Shown: one piece after another, positions 13,518 through 14,224 of the stretch
Numbering within the stretch: the first letter of the stretch is position 1
How the letters are laid out: every line of letters starts with the position of its first letter
Origin: Myxococcota bacterium
Lineage (GTDB): Bacteria > Myxococcota_A > UBA9160 > SZUA-336
Assembly: GCA_035498015.1 (NCBI GenBank)
Contig: DATKAO010000101.1
Span: 1-34,577 of the forward strand
Direction of reading: 5' to 3'
Length of the DNA: 34,577 bases
The notes under the pieces: model-generated
Seen by the model: the letters and a program-made list of their open reading frames with translations, nothing else
Told to the model about the DNA's origin: nothing
Databases searched by the model: none
Position numbers and translations under genes: made by a program

Positions 13518-13521
13518 GTGC

Positions 13522-13527
13522 TAGCGT
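13522..13527 (+). promoter_or_regulatory. Predicted -10 element before the MerR gene
   Basis: TAGCGT ends six bases before the ATG at 13534, with no Shine-Dalgarno sequence. It lies just after the stop of the PQQ dehydrogenase. No -35 is clear, so confidence is low. Confidence 0.3.
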
Positions 13528-13533
13528 CGGGCG

Positions 13534-13995
13534 ATGCTCCCGATCGGCGAGGTGGCGCGGCGCTCCGGGCTGGCGGCATCGGCGCTGCGCTACTACGAGC
13601 GCGCGGGCCTGGTGCCGCGCGCGGCGCGCGCCGGCGGAAAGCGCGTGTACGGCGAGGAGGTGCTCGAGCGGCTCGCGCTGATCCGCACGGCGCAGGCCGC
13701 GGGCTTCCGGCTGGCCGAGATCCGCACGCTCGTGGCCGGGCTCGGCCGGCGCACGCCGCCCGGCCCGCGCTGGCAGGCGCTCACCGCGCGCAAGGAAGCA
13801 GAGCTGGCCGCGCGCGTGGCCGAGCTGGCGCGGGCGCGCCGCCTGCTGCGCGCGCTCGCCCGCTGCGCCTGCCCTACGCTCGACGACTGCGCTCGCGCCC
13901 TTGACTTGAAGCGCGCTTCAACCCGTAGCTTCCCGGGTCATGGATCCGGTCGAAGCGCTCGCCGCCGCAGGAAGCTGCGCGCTCGGGGCGAGTGA
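13534..13995 (+). CDS. MerR family transcriptional regulator
   Basis: A 153-residue regulator. Residues 1-70 form the winged-helix MerR DNA-binding domain: IGEVARRSGLAASALRYYE, RAGLVPRA, then RVYGEEVLERLALI. A dimerisation helix covers about 85-110. The sensor end is CACPTLDDC with Cys111, Cys113 and Cys119, a cluster typical of metal or thiol sensors; SoxR-type Fe-S ligation would need a fourth Cys, which is absent. MerR proteins bind a dyad in a 19-base promoter spacer and twist it to activate. Such a promoter is present inside this gene's own 3' end (13901-13931). The last 33 residues, after the Cys cluster, are a basic tail encoded by the same DNA as that promoter and the start of the next gene, so they may be dispensable. 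Confidence 0.88.
   Translation: MLPIGEVARRSGLAASALRYYERAGLVPRAARAGGKRVYGEEVLERLALIRTAQAAGFRLAEIRTLVAGLGRRTPPGPRWQALTARKEAELAARVAELARARRLLRALARCACPTLDDCARALDLKRASTRSFPGHGSGRSARRRRKLRARGE
13901..13931 (+). promoter_or_regulatory. MerR-type promoter and operator inside the merR 3' end
   Basis: A -35 TTGACT (13901-13906), a 19-base spacer and a -10 TAGCTT (13926-13931). Overlapping the end of the -35 and filling most of the spacer is a perfect 16-base palindrome, TTGAAGCGCGCTTCAA (13906-13921). The overlong 19-base spacer with a central dyad is the established architecture of promoters activated by MerR-family proteins. The predicted transcription start (about 13938-13940) coincides with the ATG of the following gene. 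Confidence 0.75.
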
Positions 13996-14224
13996 GCTCG
14001 CGGAACGCGTGGCTTGGATCCGGCGCGAGATCCTGCCCCATGCGCTCGCGCGCGAGGACCTGCCCGCGGGAGGCTTCGCCTGGGAGCTGGCCGCGGCGGC
14101 CGGCCTGGCCGAGACACTCGACCGCCTGGTCGCGCTCGAATCCGCCTGCTGCGTCGCGCTCGCCTTCGCGCGCGTGCCGAGCGCGCTGCCGGGGCGACTC
14201 CGGCTCGAGGTCCGCCGCCGCTAG
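13940..14224 (+). CDS. Small Cys-Cys protein, predicted target of the adjacent MerR regulator
   Basis: A 94-residue protein beginning in another frame 56 bases before the merR stop. It has Cys13, His34 and a vicinal pair Cys70-Cys71 in the phrase LVALESACCVALAFARVP, followed by a beta strand RLRLEV. I recall similar small proteins with an E-x-x-C-C-x-F-type motif encoded beside MerR regulators of metal resistance, but cannot name the family with certainty. The Cys pair suggests binding of a soft metal or arsenic; this is inference. The MerR-type promoter upstream implies strong induction by whatever the regulator senses, and the transcript should have no leader. The 3' end overlaps the thioesterase gene by four bases in convergent orientation. 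No metal transporter or reductase is nearby. Confidence 0.75.
   Translation: MDPVEALAAAGSCALGASELAERVAWIRREILPHALAREDLPAGGFAWELAAAAGLAETLDRLVALESACCVALAFARVPSALPGRLRLEVRRR

Follow-up and report, generated by a model that had tools for sequence, protein, structure and literature searches.

The gene pair at 13534-14224 of the window (the whole 34,577-nucleotide stretch of DNA that was analysed) in all likelihood encodes a MerR-type activator that, from its own conserved promoter-operator, directs expression of a short cysteine protein whose mRNA is predicted to be leaderless, while the embedding of this operator in the merR reading frame is probably a by-product of tandem packing. This conclusion is based on the observed layout of the locus, on the observed conservation of the operator, the target and the short leader, and on the observed non-conservation of the embedding. 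The features of the locus are as follows:

13519..13527, + strand: possible extended -10 element, TGCTAGCGT (sequence only)
13534..13899, + strand: merR core, encoding a MerR-type regulator with C-x-C-P-x4-C (C111, C113 and C119) (Pfam, orthologue identity and codon bias)
13900..13995, + strand: non-conserved extension of the merR ORF by read-through (31 codons and the stop), which holds the operator and the start of the target
13901..13906, + strand: -35 element TTGACT (direct reading; conserved in relatives)
13906..13921, + strand: operator dyad TTGAAGCGCGCTTCAA, which nearly fills the 19-bp spacer (direct reading, class-wide pattern search and conservation across phyla)
13926..13931, + strand: -10 element TAGCTT (direct reading; TANNNT at 19-bp spacing in most relatives)
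13940..14224, + strand: target gene, encoding a 94-aa soluble "ECC" cysteine protein, predicted to be leaderless (homologues, profile, start spacing and predicted fold)

Direct reading of the window bases gives a merR ORF of 153 aa (13534-13995) and a 94-aa ORF that is opened by the ATG at 13940, runs to 14224 and overlaps merR by 56 bases (13940-13995). The -35 element, the 19-bp spacer (13907-13925) with TTGAAGCGCGCTTCAA, the -10 element and the target ATG, 8 nt after the -10 element, all lie within the merR frame, and the sensor-type cysteines C111, C113 and C119 are encoded just upstream of the operator. The original prediction, which had placed TTGACT, a 19-base spacer, a 16-base palindrome and TAGCTT after the sensor cysteines, with a 56-base overlap and the ATG of the next gene inside the merR frame, was thus exact with respect to the bases, and its range is right for the gene pair.

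At 72% GC, a 16-base palindrome is by itself unremarkable (by an arithmetic estimate, about 2 are expected per 34.6 kb); therefore, the case for the operator rests on conservation. Allowing at most two mismatches, a search of the 4.5-Mb genome from which the window derives returned this one copy of the operator pattern and no second. Across the 91 genomes of the class, the pattern has 22 occurrences in 21 genomes, nearly always at the regulator or its target, compared with 0 for the reversed control; a regulator orthologue is encoded in 20 of these 21 genomes (Fisher p about 7e-17). By scanning one genome per species, we obtained a set of 80 regulator loci, spanning Myxococcota, Acidobacteriota, Verrucomicrobiota, Chloroflexota, Actinomycetota, Pseudomonadota and others. 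A box CTTGACTTNAAGTNNACTTNAAG with a 19-bp spacer lies near merR at 69 of these loci (65 found by pattern and four read by eye), and most relatives show TANNNT after an equally long spacer of 19 bp. Compared with the class consensus, the window dyad carries two changes, placed symmetrically (GCGCGC for GTGCAC). Here, as in the MerR family, the target promoter has a dyad operator between -35 and -10 elements that are unusually far apart (19-20 bp). Based on these comparisons of sequences, the element predicted in the window is a genuine, conserved MerR-type promoter-operator that recurs across several phyla.

The spacing between promoter and start codon is conserved as well. In a survey of ATG codons opening long frames at 60 less redundant loci, the offset of the ATG from the -10 element peaked at 6-8 nt (16 loci), with both adjacent 3-nt bins at 0, and a second, broad group of offsets extended from 18 to 55 nt. 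Shine-Dalgarno matches reached at most 3 of 6 positions in 15 of the 16 loci with the short offset and at least 4 of 6 in 25 of the remaining 44. Because the start at 6-8 nt recurs without a Shine-Dalgarno sequence, the original suggestion that the target is translated from a leaderless mRNA appears well supported, and comparison across the clade would clearly illustrate how MerR promoters can feed leaderless messages. An experimental precedent is the Pcas12k promoter of CRISPR-associated transposons, at which the MerR-type regulator CvkR acts on a long-spacer target promoter and the cas12k mRNA is leaderless, with the start codon at the transcription start, as we predict here; however, CvkR is a repressor with another binding motif, an intergenic operator and an unrelated target (PMC9938897).

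Short spacings are also found in front of merR genes themselves. In the window, in which merR lies 16 nt downstream of a PQQ-type beta-propeller gene, the extended -10-like TGCTAGCGT ends 6 nt 5' of the merR ATG, and merR, too, may be leaderless. At locus L101 (2451-2869), the operator precedes merR with a 7-nt gap to the ATG, the same short spacing as at the targets, a layout that would imply direct autoactivation of merR; an enoyl-CoA hydratase-like ORF follows. The clade also includes eleven Streptosporangiaceae regulators, eight of them with the box divergent from merR, and at the loci examined, L153 and others from Nonomuraea, merR faces a putatively leaderless gene for a metallo-beta-lactamase-fold (lactonase-like) protein.

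The commonest target of the operator is a short "ECC" cysteine protein, of which the 94-aa window protein is a member, consistent with the original assignment of this gene as the target. Using a profile built from Myxococcota members, we found an ECC-family member next to merR at 42 of the 80 loci; homologues of the window protein itself are encoded in 18 of 98 genomes, many adjoining merR. Tallies of neighbouring gene families revealed nothing shared besides the pair, and a search of a plasmid collection returned one weak match, in Halomarina. Among 39 ECC sequences, five columns are invariant, including E67, C70 and C71, and C13 is nearly so. Full-length relatives are longer than the window protein, which has ESACC in place of the usual ERECC and a confidently predicted fold (pLDDT 91.7). 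ECC proteins have no convincing family model in Pfam or NCBIfam, and neither profile nor fold comparison to the PDB gave a significant match (best Foldseek E 0.29).

The original prediction read the embedding of the operator in merR as part of a compact feedback switch; that the embedding is a designed feature is not supported. Here, the comparison of homologues gave a divided answer: the dyad is strongly conserved, whereas the overlap is found in the window genome only. Homologous merR genes do end before the palindrome, yet the dyad is conserved. In 53 of the 69 box-bearing loci, the box lies between divergent genes, which is the usual MerR layout. Counted from the first base of the -35 element, the merR stop of six tandem relatives is at -67, -46, -12, -11, +1 and +6, ahead of the operator or in its first bases, whereas in the window it is at +92. 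At L100, merR ends with the TGA of TTGACT; at L097, it ends with the TGA of the first half-site. With these two triplets, two of the three frames through the operator are closed; because the window merR uses the third, which has no TGA, its ORF continues for 31 more codons. Tandem packing can thus let a regulator gene borrow its stop codon from its own operator or lose it there. In the regulator tree, tandem loci appear in several places; as the forks near the window are weak, the tree cannot count the origins of this layout. Moreover, the pair is absent from the window's genus mate and almost all members of its family, so that the tail was compared with more distant relatives.

The main alternative, which we consider unlikely, is that an error of sequencing or assembly close to the 3' end of merR (near 13900) extended the frame artificially and that the real stop is an operator TGA as in L100 or L097. 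The assembly is a draft of 257 contigs, the operator has a TGA in both other frames, relatives end there, and the absence of the pair from close kin of the window genome leaves some room for such an error. On the other hand, the frame is unbroken as far as the operator, and so is the homology with orthologues, which ends at about residue 123, where the operator begins; the sequence itself carries no mark of an error; and the stop position drifts naturally among the tandem relatives. We therefore favour tandem packing, in which either the original merR stop was lost or the spacer was deleted, so that the operator would have come to lie inside the merR ORF.

The merR product was correctly predicted to be a MerR-type regulator and passes the Pfam cut-offs for PF13411 (MerR_1; 63 bits, cut-off 21.6) and PF09278 (MerR-DNA-bind; 54 bits, cut-off 25.4). 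It is 46-63% identical to 19 orthologues, in which the three cysteines are invariant. Its nearest characterised relative is SoxR, the best match in both NCBIfam and the PDB, and the operator is similar to the SoxR box of E. coli, CCTCAAGTTAACTTGAGG (PMC4411124), sharing a dyad core CAAGT..ACTTG located in a long spacer between the -35 and -10 elements. Together with the thioredoxin-like nature of some clade targets, these similarities raise the question of whether the regulator is itself SoxR, i.e., a [2Fe-2S] redox sensor that controls an oxidative-stress gene via a SoxR box. We find this improbable: the score against TIGR01950 is 84.2 bits, below the cut-off of 116.9, and the C-x2-C-x-C-x5-C of SoxR is reduced to C-x-C-x5-C, all 20 aligned members lacking the first cysteine of the four that hold the cluster. 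The targets also differ, being soxS or redox efflux pumps for SoxR and mostly ECC proteins in this clade. Among the metal-responsive families, CueR (70 bits, cut-off 147), ZntR (59, cut-off 168), MerR(Hg) (59, cut-off 151) and CadR (49, cut-off 151) were rejected. These share with the window regulator the MerR fold, a promoter with a 19-20 bp spacer and the position of the cysteines in a C-terminal metal loop, but their scores lie far below the cut-offs; their cysteine motifs presumably differ from C-x-C-P-x4-C, and copA, zntA or mer genes were not seen at the regulator loci.

We infer the activation mechanism, the inducer and the function of the target from these relationships. By analogy with characterised MerR proteins, activation likely follows the standard MerR mechanism: a dimer would bind the dyad inside the over-long 19-bp spacer, a ligand, probably a thiol-binding agent, would be sensed at C111, C113 and C119, and the ligand-bound regulator would distort the spacer and realign the -35 and -10 elements. 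Transcription would then start at the target ATG, or within a base or two of it, and the short cysteine protein would be made from a leaderless mRNA; read-through from merR may provide basal expression of the target. Because the three invariant cysteines form C-x-C-P-x4-C and one relative's operator fronts arsB-arsC-arsI, the inducer is likely a thiophilic agent. In this relative, Cohnella silvisoli (L129, 175-2397, minus strand), the box precedes arsB, arsC and arsI, all scoring above curated cut-offs, and is divergent from the MerR gene, suggesting that this MerR is arsenic-responsive. For the clade as a whole, we regard arsenite as a lead, not a finding: other targets include thioredoxin, ResA-like, metallo-beta-lactamase-fold and questin-oxidase-like proteins, and the ligands may therefore differ within the clade. 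A literature search for arsenic-sensing MerR proteins or MerR proteins with C-x-C-x5-C returned nothing direct.

The compact feedback switch of the original prediction would require the overlap to be functional, with the bound regulator forming a roadblock to merR transcription or the longer C-terminus altering the regulator. We consider this reading improbable: although the operator does lie inside the window merR ORF, and tandem relatives with a merR stop inside the operator imply that merR transcription must cross it in several genomes, the embedding occurs in one genome only, and the operator is flanked by divergent genes in most members of the clade. A regulator bound at this operator, downstream of merR, cannot prevent merR from being initiated, which rules out autoregulation of initiation through this site; only a candidate roadblock effect remains as a way for the operator to act on merR. 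Nor did alignment and codon analysis reveal a conserved tail. The GC3 is 0.65 in the tail and 0.95 in the core, and the codon bias present in the core gives way to a negative score over the 31 codons. An open run of this length is expected by chance with a probability of 0.60-0.70, and without homology or codon bias, the overlap needs no functional explanation. Most likely, as far as genome comparison can tell, the position of the operator inside merR arose by accident, through the tandem packing of the genes in this one genome.

The tempting story of an operator designed into its own gene is thereby replaced by a broader and testable one, in which a one-operator, one-target MerR circuit recurs in Myxococcota, Acidobacteriota, Verrucomicrobiota, Chloroflexota and others, with a main target family that lacks a Pfam or NCBIfam model. 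We speculate, tentatively, that the regulators of this clade form a widespread MerR branch, as yet undescribed, that detects a thiophilic toxicant, e.g., arsenite, via C-x-C-P-x4-C and controls the new ECC family, often through leaderless mRNAs. In most Myxococcota, the ECC domain is fused to a hydrophobic CCVLP segment, often with a CGC-type tail, and a model of one such ECC-membrane fusion has two long C-terminal helices; as part of the same speculation, the fusion to a two-helix membrane segment with a cysteine tail would suggest a form of metalloid handling that existing models do not name. Soluble-only versions are the window protein and those at L113, L097 and L064.

Small membrane proteins are also encoded near other operators. 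In several Myxococcota, the operator and the ECC gene are separated by a small "CYALE" membrane ORF (e.g., L094, 2980-3186; L093, 2164-2385; and L111, 2173-2433), and no convincing family model for CYALE proteins was found in Pfam or NCBIfam. In Herpetosiphonaceae (L137, 2142-2411; L144, 1115-1411), the operator precedes a gene for a separate small CLIPC membrane protein with ECC domains encoded nearby, an arrangement that resembles an unfused form of the Myxococcota fusion.
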